DNA from: Martinezella lusitana | GTDB lineage: Bacteria; Pseudomonadota; Alphaproteobacteria; Rhizobiales; Rhizobiaceae | Assembly (NCBI RefSeq): GCF_900094565.1 | Contig: NZ_FMAF01000003.1 | Coordinates: 1-64,000, forward strand | Direction of reading: 5' to 3' | DNA length: 64,000 nucleotides | In this document: one piece after another, positions 24,793 to 31,567 of the stretch | Layout: every line of letters starts with the position of its first letter | How positions within the stretch are numbered: position 1 is the stretch's first letter | The notes under the pieces: model-generated | Seen by the model: the letters and a program-made list of their open reading frames with translations, nothing else | Databases searched by the model: none | What the model was told of the DNA's origin: nothing | Position numbers and translations under genes: made by a program

Positions 24793-25015
24793 CTTTTCAT
24801 TGCCGTCAGGGCAGCCTTCCCTAGAACAGTCGTTGGACGAGCCGGATTCCCGACGTAGAGCAACCGAGGATGGCGAACTCGATCGGTGTCAGCAATATAA
24901 TGAAACAAAAACACTTCTGTTCCACTCAAGATTCCGCTTCCGTGGCCGCAATCATCACGGTACATATCGCCTATATTCGCGCCAACCCACCTGATGACGA
25001 TCCGAGGATAGTGGC

Positions 25016-26011
25016 ATGACATTTCAGAGCAGTTCGCGTCTCTACGCTGCTGTTTCATCCCTGTTGTGGCCGGCCATCTTTTGCGCCGGACTGACGGGTT
25101 CGTATTTCGCGTTCCATTCGCAGATGCATCTGCTGTGGTTCAATGTCGTCTATCTCTCGGTCGTTGCGACAATCGCGCTCTTCGAGCGGCTCATGCCCTA
25201 TGAGGAGACTTGGCTCGATGCCGATGGCGAAACGTTCAACAACCTCGCGCATACGCTTCTGAGCAAGGGGGCCGTACAGATCGCGGCGGCCATCGGCACG
25301 TCATTTCCGATGGCGGTGGCAATCGTTGCGCAACCTTTCCTGAGCCACAAGGCAAATATCTGGCCGGATCAATTGCCGATGGCCTTGCAGGTCGTGCTGG
25401 GACTCATCATCGCCGAATTCGGCCTCTATCTCGCCCATCGCCTGGCCCACGAGCACCTGTCGCTCTGGCGTTTCCATGCCTTGCATCACAGCGTCGAACG
25501 CCTGTGGGTCATCAATACCGGGCGCTTTCATATCATCGACAGCCTGTTCAAGATCGCGCTCAGCCAGATCCCGCTCTATCTGCTCGGCGCGCCGCTGCCG
25601 GTCTTCCTGTGGATCGGCGCCGTCACGGCCTTTATCGGCCTTCTGACCCATTGCAACATCGATGTGCGCACCGGCCCGCTCGACTGGATCCTGTCGACTC
25701 CGCGCCTTCACCGTTGGCATCACTCCAAGCTGCTTGCCGAGGGCAACACCAATTACGGCGAGAACCTTGTCATCTGGGACCAGATCCTCGGCACCTATTA
25801 TAATCCGCCGCGCCCCTCCTCCATCGACATCGGCATCACCGGCAAGGTCGCCGACAGTTTCCTCGCCCAGCTTGTGCAACCCTTTTCCAAGAAGGGCGCC
25901 AAGCAGATCATCGGCAAGAAGCCGAAGGAATTGCGGGACAAGGAAGAGCTGGCTGCAAAGGCGGCTGCCGCCCGCGAGCAAGCCAACGAACCGATCCGCA
26001 AATCCAGCTAG
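25016..26011 (+). CDS. Fatty acid hydroxylase / sterol desaturase family membrane protein
   Basis: A 331-residue inner-membrane di-iron enzyme. Histidine clusters are visible as HRLAHEH (about 142-148), FHALHH (about 154-159) and LHRWHHSK (about 238-245), with several membrane helices around them. These fit the FA_hydroxylase superfamily, which hydroxylates or desaturates lipids with oxygen. The C-terminal tail is Lys/Ala-rich and probably cytoplasmic. It lies 226 bases before the E1-lipoyl-ketosynthase fusion in the same direction; with the LpxO-like hydroxylase beyond, a shared lipid-modifying role is conceivable but unproven. Confidence 0.85.
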   Translation: MTFQSSSRLYAAVSSLLWPAIFCAGLTGSYFAFHSQMHLLWFNVVYLSVVATIALFERLMPYEETWLDADGETFNNLAHTLLSKGAVQIAAAIGTSFPMAVAIVAQPFLSHKANIWPDQLPMALQVVLGLIIAEFGLYLAHRLAHEHLSLWRFHALHHSVERLWVINTGRFHIIDSLFKIALSQIPLYLLGAPLPVFLWIGAVTAFIGLLTHCNIDVRTGPLDWILSTPRLHRWHHSKLLAEGNTNYGENLVIWDQILGTYYNPPRPSSIDIGITGKVADSFLAQLVQPFSKKGAKQIIGKKPKELRDKEELAAKAAAAREQANEPIRKSS

Positions 26012-26237
26012 CAACCCCTCCGGATCGTTGCACCAATCCGAATTTCCGGGTGGGCAAAATGTCGAACTCGCTCAGCAAAGGGCATCGGCTGCCACGAATC
26101 CCGGCCGGGCGAAAGCACGTAAATCCATTTCAATTCTAGAGGATATTGTCATTTAACGTGTATTGAAAAAGGCACCCGGGGGGGTTACCTAGGTCCACAC
26201 AAATTATTCATGATGAAAGATTAGGAAAATCATTGAG

Positions 26238-29200
26238 ATGGAAGGGAGGTTTACCACAGAATACCTCAAGCAACTCCATAGAATATTTTTTGTTTCTAGA
26301 GAAATAGATAGGCTTGAGCGAGAATTCATTAAGCAAGGCATAGCACATTTTCATGTCTCCGGCGCCGGGCACGAGTCGACGGCGCTGCTCAACGAATTCC
26401 TCCATGACGACGACTGGCTGCATCTGCACTATCGCGACAAGGCCCTGATGCTGGCGCGCGGCATGCCCATTCGTGAGTTCTTCTCGAGCCTGCTCGCCAC
26501 AGCCAATTCCCATTCCGCCGGCCGGCAGATGAGTGCGCATCTATCCTCACGCGCGCTCAACATTACCTCCATCGTCGGCCCGGTCGGCAACAATGCGCTG
26601 CATGCGGTCGGTGTCGCCGCATCGCTGAAATACAAGCCCGGCATGCCGATCGCCATCTGCTGCGTCGGCGACGGTACGACCCAGCAGGGCGAATTCCTCG
26701 AAGCCGTGGCAGAAGCGGTTCGCAGCCAGTATCCGATTGTCTTCATCGTCGAGGACAACAGTTTCTCCATCTCGACACGGACCAGCAAGCAGACCTTCTT
26801 CGATCTGCCCGATGGCCCCGCATCCTCCTTCTACGGCATCGACATCATCCGCACTGACGGCGACGATCTGCCGGCCTCGCGAGAGGCCTTCCGCAAGGCC
26901 GTTCGCCACAGCCGCAACAACCGTACGCCGAGCATCGTGCTTCTCAATCTCGAGCGCCTGTCCGACCATACCAATGCCGACGACCAGAAGACCTATCGCA
27001 CCCTGTTGGAGATCGAATCGGGCTCTTCCCGCGATCCACTTCCAAACTTGCGGGCGATGCTTCAAAAAGCGGGCGTCAGCGCTGATGCGCTCGAGAAGAT
27101 CGAACAGGAACTGACAGCAGAAGTGCAGGCGGAAGCCGCACTCGCCCGCAAGGAAGATGCACCCGAGGTCGAGCCGGATGCAAAAGCCCCATACCCCGCC
27201 TCTTTCGCCAAAACGGCGGAGTATCGCGGCCTCGAGCGCGAAGCAACGCTGACCATGCGCGAGGCGCTGAACGGCGTGCTCGACAGGCAATTGGCCGCCA
27301 ATCCCGAAGTCGTGCTGTTCGGCCAGGATATCGAAGATCCCAAGGGCGATGTCTTCGGCGTCACCCGCGGCCTCAGCACCAAATATCCCGAACGCGTTCG
27401 CAACGCAGCACTCACCGAATCCACCATCGTCGGCACCGCCGTCGGCCGGGCGCTCGCCGGGCAACGGCCGGTCGCCTTCCTGCAATTCGCCGATTTCCTG
27501 CCGCTCGCCTATAACCAGATCGTCTCGGAAATGGGCAGCATGTACTGGCGCACCAAGGGCGCCTGGGAATCTCCCGTGATCCTGATGGTGAGCTGCGGCG
27601 GCTACAAGCCCGGCCTCGGGCCATTCCACGCGCAGAGCTTCGAAAGCATGCTGGCCCATACGCCCGGCATCGATGTCGTCATGCCCTCCAGTGCCGGCGA
27701 TGCCGCCGGCCTGCTGAATGCCGCGTTCGAATCGAGGCGCCCCACCGTTTTCCTCTATCCGAAAGCGGTGCTCAACAATTCCGACGGCCGCACCTCGACC
27801 GATCTCGACAAGCATTTCGTCCGTCCGGGCCTGTCGCGCTACGTTGCCCGCGGCCGCGACCTGACACTGGTCAGCTACGGCAACACGGTGTCTCTCTGTG
27901 CCAACGCCGCCAAGGCCTTCGAAGCGCAGGGTTTTTCCGTCGAGGTGATCGACCTCCGTTCCATCTCGCCGTGGGATGAAAGGGAAGTGCTGGCAAGCGC
28001 CAAGCGCACGAGACGGCTGATCGTCGTGCATGAAGACAACCGCACTGTCGGCATGGGCGCCGAGATCGTCGCCACCGTCACCGAAAAGGCCGACGTTCCC
28101 GTCGTCGTCCGCAGGCTTGCCCGCTCGGACGCGCATGTTCCCTTCAATTTCCGCAACCAGCTCGAAATGCTGCCGTCCTACAGCAAGCTCGTCGACCTGA
28201 TGGCCGAGGTTCTCGAATGCGAGGTCACCTGGCACGAAGAGGATGATAGCGGCCCGACCGCCGCCATCAAGGCAATCGGCTCCGGTCCCGCCGACGAGAA
28301 CGTGTTGATCACCGATCTCCTGGTCAAGCCGGGCGACACGATCGAGGTCGGTCAGCTCGTGGCCGTCGTCGAGGCGACGAAGGCCTCGGTGGAAATCTGT
28401 GCCAATATCGGCGGAGTCGTGCTCGAGGTCTTCGCAAGGATCGGTGACCAGATCGCCACCGACAGCACGCTTCTGACCGTTGACGCCAACCGGGATACGA
28501 GCGAACAGAACTTCGCTCTCGCCTCGGAGACGCAAAACAAGTTCGTGCTGCGCCGCCTGAAATCGCACTCCATTCCGGCACTGCGCCGTCATTCCGGCAG
28601 TTTCTCGGAAATAGCCGTCAGCGGCATCGGCTTTGCGACCGGCGCCCGCCGGGTCGCCAACGAAGACATCATCCATCATTGGCCGAACCGGCGCGCCGAC
28701 GAAATCTTTGCACTGACAGGCATCAAGAGCCGGTTCTGGGTCGGTCCGGGAGAAGGCACGTTGAGCCTTGCGACAGCGGCCGTTCGCGATCTGCTGCGCC
28801 AGACCCAGATGTCGATCCACGACATCGATCTGGTCATCGCCGCGACGGGCACGCCCGATATCGCCACGCCGTCCCTTGCAAGCCGCGTCGCCGTTGCGGT
28901 CGCCGAAGACGGCGTGCGGCCGTCCCTTGCCGCCTACGATATGGGCGCCGCCTGTTCCGGCTATCTCTACGCGCTGCAGCAGGCCTACGATTTCATCGCG
29001 CAGCAGAATGACGCGAAGGTGCTGATCGTCACCTCGGAAGTGCTGTCTCCGCTGCTCGACATGAAGGATTTCTCCACCGCCATCCTGTTCGGCGACGCCG
29101 CCACCGCCAGCCTCGTGACCACCCGCGACATGGCGCGCAGCCCGCTATTTGCGGCGAGCCGCCCGACCATCAGCGGCCGCCCGGAACCGGGCGATCTTCT

Positions 29201-29561
29201 CTTCGTCCCTCTGCCGGATGAAGGCGTCATCGCCATGAACGGCCGCGCGGTCTTCACCGAGGCGGTGCACTCCATGTCCCGCTCGATCGAGGACGCTTGT
29301 GTCGACGCCGGCATTGAACTCGCCAATCTCGATCTGCTGGTGCCGCATCAGGCCAACCAGCGCATCATCGACACCATCGCCAAGCGCAGCGGCCGCCCGG
29401 CACTGAGCGTCATCGAGAACTACGGCAACACCAGCTCTTCGAGCATCCCGCTTGCCATGCTTCACGTCGCCAACGAACGGCCCGAGCCACTCAATCTCGG
29501 CCTCGTCGCTTTCGGCGGCGGCATGACATCGGGCGCGGCAATCGTGCGCACGATAAAATAG
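26238..29561 (+). CDS. Fusion: 2-oxoacid dehydrogenase E1 alpha + E1 beta + lipoyl domain + FabH-like ketosynthase
   Basis: 1107 residues in one open frame. Residues 1-300: thiamine-diphosphate E1 alpha, with GDGTTQQGE at 144-152 and EDN at 172-174 in place of NN. Residues 335-665: E1 beta, with the FGQDIEDPKGDVFGVTRGL and ALTESTIVG motifs. Residues 680-750: lipoyl domain, with candidate lipoyl-lysine Lys715 in VEATKAS. Residues 790-1107: ketoacyl-ACP synthase III, with Cys906 (GAACSG), His1037 (PHQAN) and Asn1064 (YGNTSSSS) all present. E2 acyltransferase, E3 and subunit-binding domains are missing. The simplest reading is decarboxylation of a 2-oxoacid, transfer of the acyl group to the in-cis lipoyl arm and delivery to the ketosynthase Cys for condensation, without free acyl-CoA. 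The first 42 codons are AT-rich and unlike the rest. Confidence 0.9.
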   Translation: MEGRFTTEYLKQLHRIFFVSREIDRLEREFIKQGIAHFHVSGAGHESTALLNEFLHDDDWLHLHYRDKALMLARGMPIREFFSSLLATANSHSAGRQMSAHLSSRALNITSIVGPVGNNALHAVGVAASLKYKPGMPIAICCVGDGTTQQGEFLEAVAEAVRSQYPIVFIVEDNSFSISTRTSKQTFFDLPDGPASSFYGIDIIRTDGDDLPASREAFRKAVRHSRNNRTPSIVLLNLERLSDHTNADDQKTYRTLLEIESGSSRDPLPNLRAMLQKAGVSADALEKIEQELTAEVQAEAALARKEDAPEVEPDAKAPYPASFAKTAEYRGLEREATLTMREALNGVLDRQLAANPEVVLFGQDIEDPKGDVFGVTRGLSTKYPERVRNAALTESTIVGTAVGRALAGQRPVAFLQFADFLPLAYNQIVSEMGSMYWRTKGAWESPVILMVSCGGYKPGLGPFHAQSFESMLAHTPGIDVVMPSSAGDAAGLLNAAFESRRPTVFLYPKAVLNNSDGRTSTDLDKHFVRPGLSRYVARGRDLTLVSYGNTVSLCANAAKAFEAQGFSVEVIDLRSISPWDEREVLASAKRTRRLIVVHEDNRTVGMGAEIVATVTEKADVPVVVRRLARSDAHVPFNFRNQLEMLPSYSKLVDLMAEVLECEVTWHEEDDSGPTAAIKAIGSGPADENVLITDLLVKPGDTIEVGQLVAVVEATKASVEICANIGGVVLEVFARIGDQIATDSTLLTVDANRDTSEQNFALASETQNKFVLRRLKSHSIPALRRHSGSFSEIAVSGIGFATGARRVANEDIIHHWPNRRADEIFALTGIKSRFWVGPGEGTLSLATAAVRDLLRQTQMSIHDIDLVIAATGTPDIATPSLASRVAVAVAEDGVRPSLAAYDMGAACSGYLYALQQAYDFIAQQNDAKVLIVTSEVLSPLLDMKDFSTAILFGDAATASLVTTRDMARSPLFAASRPTISGRPEPGDLLFVPLPDEGVIAMNGRAVFTEAVHSMSRSIEDACVDAGIELANLDLLVPHQANQRIIDTIAKRSGRPALSVIENYGNTSSSSIPLAMLHVANERPEPLNLGLVAFGGGMTSGAAIVRTIK

Positions 29562-29564
29562 TCA

Positions 29565-29900
29565 TCGCAGCAGCGGTTGCTGCCATTGCAGCCATCGCAG
29601 CCGAACAGGCAATCGCCGAACGCGAAGTCATGGCCAAGCAGGTGCGCGAGTCCGCCAACGTCGGCTCGACCCGTCCTGTCCAGCAGCATGAGACGGAGGC
29701 TCGCGCGACAACCGGATCGTCGCGCAGGAAAGCACCATTGCGGTCGCCAGCAAGAGCCGCGAGGAGTCGGAAGCTAGGCGAAAGCCGAAGCCGCACGCGC
29801 ACTCGCCATCGCCTGCTCAAGGAAGCCGGCTTCGATGGTGACAATGCCATCTCGACGCTGCCTGGCAATCTGGGCGGCAAAACCGCTACCACGCAGTCAA
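29565..29900 (+). pseudogene. Decayed coding remnant, possibly flotillin/YqiK-like
   Basis: 472 bases separate the fusion gene and the next gene (29562-30033). Pieces in different frames look like a coiled-coil membrane protein: IAAEQAIAEREVMAKQVRES in one frame and RIVAQESTIAVASKSREESE in another. The latter recalls flotillin/YqiK proteins, which have DRDLAVAAKSQEVSEA-like segments. No frame is continuous, so this is probably a frameshifted fragment. The family assignment is from memory and weak. Confidence 0.3.
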
Positions 29901-29972
29901 GCGATGATAATGACGAAGATACCGAAGAGGCGGATAAGCCAGCTCAACCGCTGAGCCTGAGCGACCAAAAGC

Positions 29973-30008
29973 AAAACCCCGGAATCCGCAGTGGGTTCCG
30001 GGGTTTTT
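29973..30008. terminator. Bidirectional intrinsic terminator
   Basis: AAAACCCCGGAA (29973-29984) and TTCCGGGGTTTT (29996-30007) form a perfect 12-bp stem, with T-runs on both strands. It lies 25 bases after the stop of the LpxO-like gene on the minus strand and also ends rightward transcription. Confidence 0.8.
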
Positions 30009-30033
30009 CGTAGAATTCACAAGCCAGGCTGGA

Positions 30034-30879
30034 TTATGCCCTTGGGCGATTTCTCAGCGCCTCTGCCTCGGCATAGAACTTCTTTTCCCATTCCTTGTGG
30101 TTGTCGAGACCTTCCTTGATGAACGGCGTGAAGATCGCCAGGTTCATCAAGGCCCAGTTGACAAAGCGGGCCGGGAATTTCAGCGGCTTGACGAAATCGA
30201 CGAAGAGCACCACGCGGGTCTTGTCGGTGTGGTTCCAGGCTTCATGCTCGTAGGCGTCGTCAAAGATCAGCGCCTTGCCTTCCTGCCAATGGCAAATCTG
30301 CTTGTCGACGCGAATGGCGAGCTGGTCTTGTGGTTCTGGCACGATGAGGCCGAGATGCAGGCGCAACACGCCGTTATAGGGGCCGCGATGCGCGGGAAGA
30401 TGCTTGCCGGGCTCGAAAATGGAGAACATGGCGGTCGTCAGCCCGGGGATTTTCTGTACCGCCGCCCAGGTGTTCGGGCATGCCTTAATGTTTTGCTCGG
30501 ACTTCACGCCGAAACCGAGAAGGAAGAAGGTCTTCCAGCGGGTGTCGGTCGAGATGGTCTTCACATCGGTGGAGATGTCCTGGAATGTCGGCAGCTCGCT
30601 CTGGCGCAGCAGCACCTTTTCGAGCTCCGCGCGGATCGCCGGATAATCCTTCTCGATCTCGGCCGCCCAGGGGAAGGTCGCGCTGTTGTAGACCGGCGGA
30701 TTGCCGAGCTTGGCATATTTCAGATTGAGGCCTTCGGCCCAGGCAACGATGCCCATGAAAAAACGTGTCAGGGCGCTCGGGCGGTCCATCGGCGCGATGC
30801 CGGTTGTGCCAAAGGTTTGTTCCGGAGCATGAGATTCGGTGGAAGTGGGAGCAGGTGCGCTCAAGGGGCTCTCCGTCAT
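30034..30879 (-). CDS. Aspartyl/asparaginyl beta-hydroxylase family protein (LpxO-like)
   Basis: A 281-residue 2-oxoglutarate/iron-dependent oxygenase. HRGPYNGVLRLHLGL near residues 167-181 gives the first His and an Arg; DDAYEHEAWNHTDKTRVVLFVD gives the second His and the co-substrate Arg when read as DAYEHEAW and RVVLF. The family includes LpxO, which hydroxylates lipid A acyl chains. A hydrophobic stretch near residues 38-55 and another near the end could hold it to the membrane. About 300 bases separate it from the next gene on the right, and no operon partner is visible. Confidence 0.8.
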   Translation of the reverse strand: MTESPLSAPAPTSTESHAPEQTFGTTGIAPMDRPSALTRFFMGIVAWAEGLNLKYAKLGNPPVYNSATFPWAAEIEKDYPAIRAELEKVLLRQSELPTFQDISTDVKTISTDTRWKTFFLLGFGVKSEQNIKACPNTWAAVQKIPGLTTAMFSIFEPGKHLPAHRGPYNGVLRLHLGLIVPEPQDQLAIRVDKQICHWQEGKALIFDDAYEHEAWNHTDKTRVVLFVDFVKPLKFPARFVNWALMNLAIFTPFIKEGLDNHKEWEKKFYAEAEALRNRPRA

Positions 30880-31177
30880 GTCTGTCTTTAGGGCGGTCAG
30901 GGAGGAAGGCTGCCTCAGGGGGAATCTGCACGGAAATTCCGGGGGAGCAACAGGTTCGACGCTTTCAATGCTCGCCCGCCCGTTCCTGATTGACGCCGGA
31001 CTCCTCTGTTATGCGATGATCATAATAAGCGTTTATATGAGTTGATTAGTCGAATTTCGCAAGAGAGTCCGTTCACAACGAGCGGTGATTTGTCGTGGAT
31101 TGAATCTCCGGTGATTTCTCGAAGAAATTCACCCCAGAATTGGCAAAAATACGGCACGACAGACCTGAGCCATCCGC

Positions 31178-31567
31178 CTAGATGGTTTGAGCCAGAATTA
31201 TTAGCCGGACAACGGCAAATCCGGCAATCAGGGCCCCTAGCGACAGAAAAACGGACAGGCCGACATAAGCCACGAAGGGCATCCATTGGCCGCGCTCCCA
31301 AAGCACGACGCTCTCCAGCGCAAACGTTGAAAACGTCGTGAACCCGCCCAGAATGCCTGTTGTCAGAAAAAGCCGAAGCTCCTGCGACACTCCGCCACGG
31401 AAGGCGAAATATTCCGTCAGCACCCCCATGATGAACGCGCCGACGACATTGATGATAAGCGTACCGAACGGAAATTCGCCCCCGAACAGACGAGCAGCAA
31501 GCTCGTTGACGCCGAGACGGAAAGCGCCACCCAATCCGGCGCCAAGAAAAACGACAAGATAGATCAC
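31178..31567 (-). CDS. crcB: Fluoride channel CrcB/Fluc
   Basis: A 129-residue inner-membrane protein with four helices. The family motifs are INVVGAFIMG (near 39-48) and GGFTTFSTF (near 74-82). Fluc proteins form dual-topology dimers that let fluoride leave the cell. It is the second gene of a unit behind the CLC-type transporter, 107 bases downstream, and both would be controlled by the fluoride riboswitch at 33155-33262. Confidence 0.93.
   Translation of the reverse strand: MIYLVVFLGAGLGGAFRLGVNELAARLFGGEFPFGTLIINVVGAFIMGVLTEYFAFRGGVSQELRLFLTTGILGGFTTFSTFALESVVLWERGQWMPFVAYVGLSVFLSLGALIAGFAVVRLIILAQTI

Follow-up and report, generated by a model that had tools for sequence, protein, structure and literature searches.

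A single gene of Martinezella lusitana, located at 26238..29561 on the forward strand of a 64,000-nucleotide stretch (contig NZ_FMAF01000003.1, positions 1 to 64,000; hereafter the window), encodes a polypeptide in which the alpha and beta halves of a 2-oxoacid dehydrogenase E1 component are followed by a lipoyl domain and a FabH-like β-ketoacyl-acyl carrier protein synthase III (KAS III) domain. The fusion is probably a self-contained starter module for fatty-acid-type chains that does not depend on coenzyme A (CoA). In the mechanism proposed from the sequence, the E1 portion would decarboxylate a 2-oxoacid and reductively acylate the lipoyl group on Lys715, probably acting as an (alpha-beta)2 dimer with thiamine diphosphate (ThDP). 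The acyl-dihydrolipoyl arm would swing via a linker to the fused KAS III, which would fill the slot held by the E2 acyltransferase in ordinary complexes, and Cys906 would accept the acyl group. His1037 and Asn1064 would drive decarboxylative condensation with malonyl-acyl carrier protein (malonyl-ACP), yielding a 3-oxoacyl-ACP that ordinary type II fatty acid synthesis could extend, while a shared E3 would re-oxidize the lipoyl group in trans. Lipoylation, acyl transfer and the identity of the acceptor are predictions from this arrangement, and the acyl product may be branched or unusual.

The gene forms one open frame of 1107 codons, from ATG to stop. Open reading frame (ORF) analysis, Pfam and alignments bear out what a preliminary description, made from the sequence alone, had said of its coordinates, its single frame, the four domains, Lys715 and the Cys-His-Asn triad of KAS III. 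Above the gathering cut-offs of Pfam, the protein matches E1_dh (residues 19-311), Transket_pyr (337-512), Transketolase_C (535-644), Biotin_lipoyl (687-747), ACP_syn_III (900-966), and ACP_syn_III_C (1023-1104). The catalytic domains of E2 and E3 had been reported missing, and indeed neither the E2 acyltransferase domain (PF00198) nor an E3 domain is matched by Pfam in the chain at an E-value of 0.001; no Pfam match to a peripheral-subunit-binding domain was found in the chain either. Where a 2-oxoacid dehydrogenase complex has an E2 that hands the acyl group to CoA, this chain carries KAS III instead. The frame is uninterrupted in the Rhizobium tropici group (31 loci, 90-99% identity) and, in diverged form, open in 14 further loci found by a pattern scan (11 Devosia-type, 2 Rhodobacter-type, and 1 Pirellulaceae); L038, which abuts a contig end, is missing its initial residues. 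Since the frame is open in these loci, the frameshift that the preliminary description had asked to be checked is not the case, nor is an assembly artefact. Decay or an accidental joining is likewise refuted and retains next to no probability: 64 distinct proteins keep the catalytic residues, and the ratio of nonsynonymous to synonymous substitution rates (dN/dS) is 0.04-0.16 in each domain and in the linker (window gene against five Rhizobium loci). An ORF on the reverse strand (26547-28820) was regarded as a shadow ORF of this gene.

The strongest argument that KAS III is acylated by the lipoyl arm is that E2 and KAS III occur at the same position in related proteins. Four proteins of Planctomycetota (L116, L117, L118, and L120) and one from a metagenome-assembled genome (MAG) of Verrucomicrobiales (L051/L119) are single chains of E1-alpha, E1-beta, lipoyl domain and 2-oxoacid_dh acyltransferase; L051/L119 is 52% identical to the window protein across residues 13-748. 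Judging by these proteins, one E1-lipoyl module has been paired with two different acyl acceptors at the same position. A tree of the E1 part (38 rows; a quick method, with several long branches flagged) places the four planctomycete E2-type proteins outside the KAS-type group and L119 inside it. The usual motif of E2 acyltransferases is DHRxxDG; the E2-type chains L116, L117, L118, L120, and L119 carry DHRPFNG or DHRVVNG in its place.

That the lipoyl arm feeds KAS III without CoA had been suggested in the preliminary description. The idea predicts a KAS III at the E2 position and no need for a CoA site; both were found, which supports it at the level of sequence, as the clamp for the CoA adenine is absent from all 64 fused domains and the catalytic residues are kept. 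The KAS III domain (residues 791-1104, 28608..29549, forward strand; ACP_syn_III and ACP_syn_III_C) has FabH as its nearest solved folds: modelled alone, with a predicted local distance difference test (pLDDT) of 78.7 and a predicted template modelling score (pTM) of 0.85, better than in the full-length model, it matches FabH (Z 33.1) and BioZ (Z 32.5) in a tie. Residues were compared between the 64 fused domains and 17 separate KAS III proteins, i.e., E. coli FabH and 16 from these or related genomes, the latter being only 16 of the separate matches found. Left out of the counts were the E2-type L051/L119, L116, L117, L118, and L120, as well as L053 and L115 (cut at contig ends), G1406 (cut), and G1265. 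The nucleophile Cys906 (codon 28953..28955, forward strand, as for the two that follow), His1037 (29346..29348), and Asn1064 (29427..29429) are invariant in both sets (64 of 64 fused and 17 of 17 separate proteins).

In a superposition with CoA-bound E. coli FabH, as given in an excerpt of the structural report, the CoA adenine is stacked between Trp32 and Arg151 and bonded to Thr28, and Arg36 and two Asn residues contact the phosphopantetheine (PMC4606726). None of the 64 fused domains has Trp32, Arg151, or Thr28 (E. coli numbering), which are present in 16, 17, and 15 of the 17 separate proteins, respectively. Asn247, one of the pantetheine-contacting residues, is found in all members of both sets (64/64 and 17/17), as is, but for one separate protein (16/17), an arginine at position 249, which we take to be the ACP docking residue of E. 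coli FabH; the roles of Lys214 and Phe87 are likewise presumed from the FabH literature. The alignment indicates that the adenine side of the CoA site is lost, and that the parts usable by an ACP arm are mostly kept. Phe87 is replaced by threonine in 64/64 fused domains vs. 2/17 separate proteins, and this pocket change points to a starter other than acetyl. In the window protein, positions 32, 36, 87, and 151 correspond to Glu822, Leu826, Thr877, and Phe945. The domain thus shares its fold, triad and Arg249 with FabH and BioZ, but unlike FabH it is attached to an E1-lipoyl module, lacks Trp32 and Arg151, has the Phe87 replacement and stays under the NCBIfam cut-offs (PRK09352 over residues 791-1105, 229.7 of 249 bits; fabH, 187.7 of 292.1 bits).

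The fused KAS domains form a single clade with a support of 100/100 (tree with 26 of the 64 rows), so that the loss of the CoA site would be one kept event; the data point to a single joining that was retained and to one old change under selection. A separate FabH-like KAS III, 36% identical to the fused domain, is encoded in the window's genome, and such proteins were found in all 19 of the KAS-fusion genomes examined. The possibility that the fused domain is the sole KAS III of its genome was rejected on this ground, and the fused copy appears to be an additional, specialized starter.

The E1 halves carry the active site of the alpha2-beta2 type. E1-alpha (residues 19-311, 26292..27170, forward strand; E1_dh, 3.1e-45) contains the ThDP motif (GDG at 144-146, followed by Asn174) and the catalytic His244 in an H-x3-DD context. 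Gly144, Gly146, Asn174, and His244 are kept in 64/64 KAS-type fusions and Asp145 in 63/64, the exception being D145E. Glu394 and His464 of E1-beta (residues 337-644, 27246..28169, forward strand; Transket_pyr and Transketolase_C) are kept in 64/64. A separate E1 pair is also encoded in the window's genome, and two matches to E3 above the cut-offs lie elsewhere in it. In the lipoyl domain (residues 687-747, 28296..28478, forward strand; Biotin_lipoyl, 1.5e-10), the predicted lipoylation site is Lys715 (codon 28380..28382, forward strand; motif EATKA), a lysine in 64/64 fusions, which the full-length model puts in a hairpin turn, with predicted strands at 707-712 and 717-721 on either side. It is preceded by aspartate, as in the usual DKA signature, in 16/64 fusions. 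Biotin rather than lipoate on Lys715 is not favoured, as E-x-[TDE]-K is found in 64/64 fusions and no methionine adjoins the lysine. The linker between the lipoyl and KAS III domains (residues 750-790, 28485..28607, forward strand) is probably flexible. Modelled confidence falls below a pLDDT of 50 at residues 311-336, 754-767, and 775-790, as would be needed by a swinging arm.

Several known systems come close to the fusion. Branched-chain 2-oxoacid dehydrogenase (BCKDH, or Bkd) together with FabH shares with it the E1 active site, the lipoyl arm and the Cys-His-Asn triad of KAS III, and would yield a starter of this kind, as far as extracts of the reports describe it (PMC6461809, PMC6167442). 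These are, however, separate proteins linked by an acyl-CoA made by E2, whereas the fusion is one chain with neither E2 nor a CoA-adenine clamp in KAS III. The actinobacterial 2-oxoglutarate dehydrogenase OdhA/KGD likewise joins E1 and the enzyme that accepts the acyl group in one chain, but its acceptor is, in the portion of the report drawn on here, a succinyl transferase of the E2 type (PMC10415282). The preliminary description did not recall the architecture as described, and no description of it, or of an acyl-lipoyl group feeding a ketosynthase, was found in the open-access literature; as far as those searches tell, such a transfer would be new.

Several observations weigh against the proposed module, and others, given further below, against a branched-chain substrate. 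The 64 fusions are one clade and hence do not represent 64 independent losses of the CoA site. Arg36, which contacts phosphopantetheine, is partially retained (17/64 fused vs. 16/17 separate proteins), and a basic residue at position 214 is found in only 13/64 fused domains vs. 16/17 separate ones. The nesting of an E2-type protein within the KAS-type group depends on one MAG contig (L119). The full-length predicted structure is only moderate (mean pLDDT 69.1, pTM 0.56) and does not give the placement of the domains. No shared operon partner adjoins the fusion across groups, and within the locus sets, low-identity matches aside, only close relatives have neighbours in common. An acyl-ACP donor would also be compatible with the lost adenine clamp, and the two halves might accordingly be independent, E1 and the lipoyl domain serving an E2 in trans and KAS III being primed by acyl-ACP, with the fusion merely ensuring co-expression. 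This is quite improbable, given that KAS III occupies the E2 position of the sister proteins, that no peripheral-subunit-binding domain was matched, and that no partner gene next to the fusion is common to the groups. It is also improbable, if a little less so, that KAS III does no more than pass the acyl group on from the lipoyl arm to ACP or another acceptor, without condensation, as QncL/NapD or acyltransferases of the KAS III family do. Such transfer has precedents of one kind in NapB/NapD and QncN/QncL/QncM, which use a ketose and supply the C2 unit of naphthyridinomycin and quinocarcin, respectively, both through a lipoyl intermediate. The Rhizobium gene, moreover, lies between two lipid-modifying genes, olsE and olsC. 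His1037 and Asn1064, which in KAS III enzymes are needed for malonyl decarboxylation, are nevertheless kept in every fusion. The Qnc system combines E1-like proteins with a lipoyl domain and passes the acyl group to a carrier protein rather than to CoA; unlike the fusion, it retains the catalytic domain of an acyltransferase (QncL), uses a separate ACP and serves peptide assembly, and no ketosynthase domain is described in the excerpt of the report (PMC6335953). In the fusion no acyltransferase catalytic domain was found, and no partner ACP gene was seen nearby: no ORF of 50-160 amino acids matched E. coli AcpP at 1e-3 (phmmer) in the window at 16000-40000 or in 70 loci, although a distant ACP could escape this search.

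The substrate of the proposed starter module is the least secure part of the interpretation, and branched-chain 2-oxoacids are only mildly favoured by the sequence comparisons. The top solved-structure match of both E1 halves is the branched-chain E1 of Thermus; branched-chain and pyruvate E1 proteins follow as near ties, and the E1-alpha of the Pseudomonas branched-chain enzyme ranks last. Of the 17 fusion genomes of the verrucomicrobial sample, which are of unstated completeness, 5 gave no further E1 of this type at 1e-8 and the remaining 12 gave one. To our knowledge, Rhizobium and Devosia are not noted for branched fatty acids; they chiefly make straight-chain acids. The same chemistry with pyruvate, starting straight-chain fatty acids without acetyl-CoA, is therefore possible, if rather unlikely: the E1 part also matches profiles of pyruvate dehydrogenase (PDH) E1, below their cut-offs, and solved PDH E1 structures almost as well as branched-chain ones. 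Against the pyruvate reading, the threonine in place of Phe87 in 64/64 would argue against an acetyl-only pocket, and a separate FabH-like protein is present. A further weak hint of a branched-chain substrate comes from lipids: according to an extract of one report, anteiso-C15:0, iso-C15:0, and iso-C14:0 are abundant in described Verrucomicrobiota (PMC12193912), and in an extract of another 92% of the phosphatidylethanolamine fatty acids of Akkermansia muciniphila are branched, with a pathway drawn as BCKDH and FabH (PMC9328018).

The fusion architecture is spread across at least three phyla. The search for the same domain order, proposed in the preliminary description, returned the 64 distinct proteins from Alphaproteobacteria and from the phyla of one verrucomicrobial and one planctomycete genome, down to 42% identity. 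The window's genome belongs to the Rhizobium tropici/lusitanum group, and its nearest named locus is that of Rhizobium lusitanum Opo-234 (L007, 99%). The pattern scan relied on exact peptide patterns from one protein and so misses distant relatives. Its 47 loci comprise 31 from the Rhizobium tropici group, 11 of the Devosia type (Rhizobium cauense among them), 2 of the Rhodobacter type, one from Pirellulaceae, L051 (the Verrucomicrobiales MAG, with an E2-type C-terminus), and L053 (cut). Among sampled whole genomes, the fusion was found in 4/394 of its own family at 1e-100, and at 1e-140 in 2/397 of its order and 1/385 of its class; these samples overlap and contain the window's own genome. 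Matches were found in 7/199 genomes of the phylum of the Pirellulaceae genome and in 20/194 of that of the Verrucomicrobiales genome, where the labels Planctomycetota and Verrucomicrobiota follow the centre genome of each sample and the database phylum is possibly wider than the classical one. The 20 verrucomicrobial matches comprise 17 full-length proteins with KAS III, G1406 (cut at its start but reaching the end of KAS), G1468 (cut before KAS), and L051. Two of the seven planctomycete matches are KAS-type and five match over E1 only; four of these five were retrieved, and all four carry an E2 acyltransferase. The patchy occurrence in Alphaproteobacteria suggests horizontal transfer into this class, possibly from Verrucomicrobiota. 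Rhizobium cauense (L045, 9974-13297) carries a Devosia-type copy, 60% identical to the Rhizobium tropici group and as much as 86% to loci of the Devosia type, a sign of horizontal transfer. On the Streptomyces plasmids L057 and L058, a fusion of E1-alpha and E1-beta, about 37-39% identical to the window E1, lies directly before a peptide synthetase; it was not taken for the same system, being annotated as E1 only and found in a different context.

In the window, the fusion lies downstream of olsE (ornithine lipid hydroxylase, 25016..26011, same strand; NF052566 above cut-off) and is convergent with olsC (ornithine lipid acyl 2-hydroxylase, 30034..30879, reverse strand; NF052565 above cut-off). 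In the Rhizobium tropici group, olsE is upstream in 31/31 loci and olsC downstream within the retrieved stretch in 29/31. This neighbourhood is a possible lipid context that the mechanism does not require. PspA, YqiJ and most of a flotillin gene, which lie between the fusion and olsC in L007, are missing from the window, which retains a flotillin gene remnant (29593-29947) matching two separate parts of the L007 gene; over the remnant, L008 matches as L007 does and L015 does not match. Outside the Rhizobium tropici group the neighbours differ, and housekeeping and envelope genes predominate among the ones scanned, e.g., RNase G, FtsW, PBP2, and MreB/C/D (L101, L107), a phosphotransferase system enzyme I type protein and an ammonium transporter (L102), a radical S-adenosylmethionine protein (L106), and a protein resembling the Lnt N-terminus with a PlsC-type acyltransferase (L098) in the verrucomicrobial sample, or an M23 peptidase, an AhpC-type protein, a release factor, and NAD kinase in the Devosia-type L048. 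There were 27 loose neighbour matches between the two locus sets; the 25 listed have 28-50% identity and lie at least 1.3 kb from the fusion. A MocR-type regulator in L045 and Rhizobium loci (32-33%) exemplifies the low-identity matches within a locus set. No biosynthetic cluster naming a product was seen among the selection of neighbours scanned, and Rfam gave no match in the window at 24800-31200.

Initiation of fatty acid synthesis without FabH, by decarboxylation of malonyl-ACP, is known in E. coli, as outlined in part of one report (PMC8666670); the fusion would add another route. On balance, it appears to represent another way of starting fatty acids, in which the lipoyl arm of a 2-oxoacid dehydrogenase would acylate a ketosynthase directly and the starter would never become acyl-CoA; it may contribute to the iso and anteiso lipids of Verrucomicrobiota, and it would have spread to Alphaproteobacteria. 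If so, a 2-oxoacid dehydrogenase could pass on its acyl group in a form other than acyl-CoA, and its acceptor domain would be exchangeable, E2 for a ketosynthase. Several phyla would possess a CoA-free starter step for lipids, and branched-lipid pathways drawn as BCKDH and FabH in such genomes would have to be reread. The fusion would also offer a single-gene tool for supplying fatty acid or polyketide synthesis with starters of choice.

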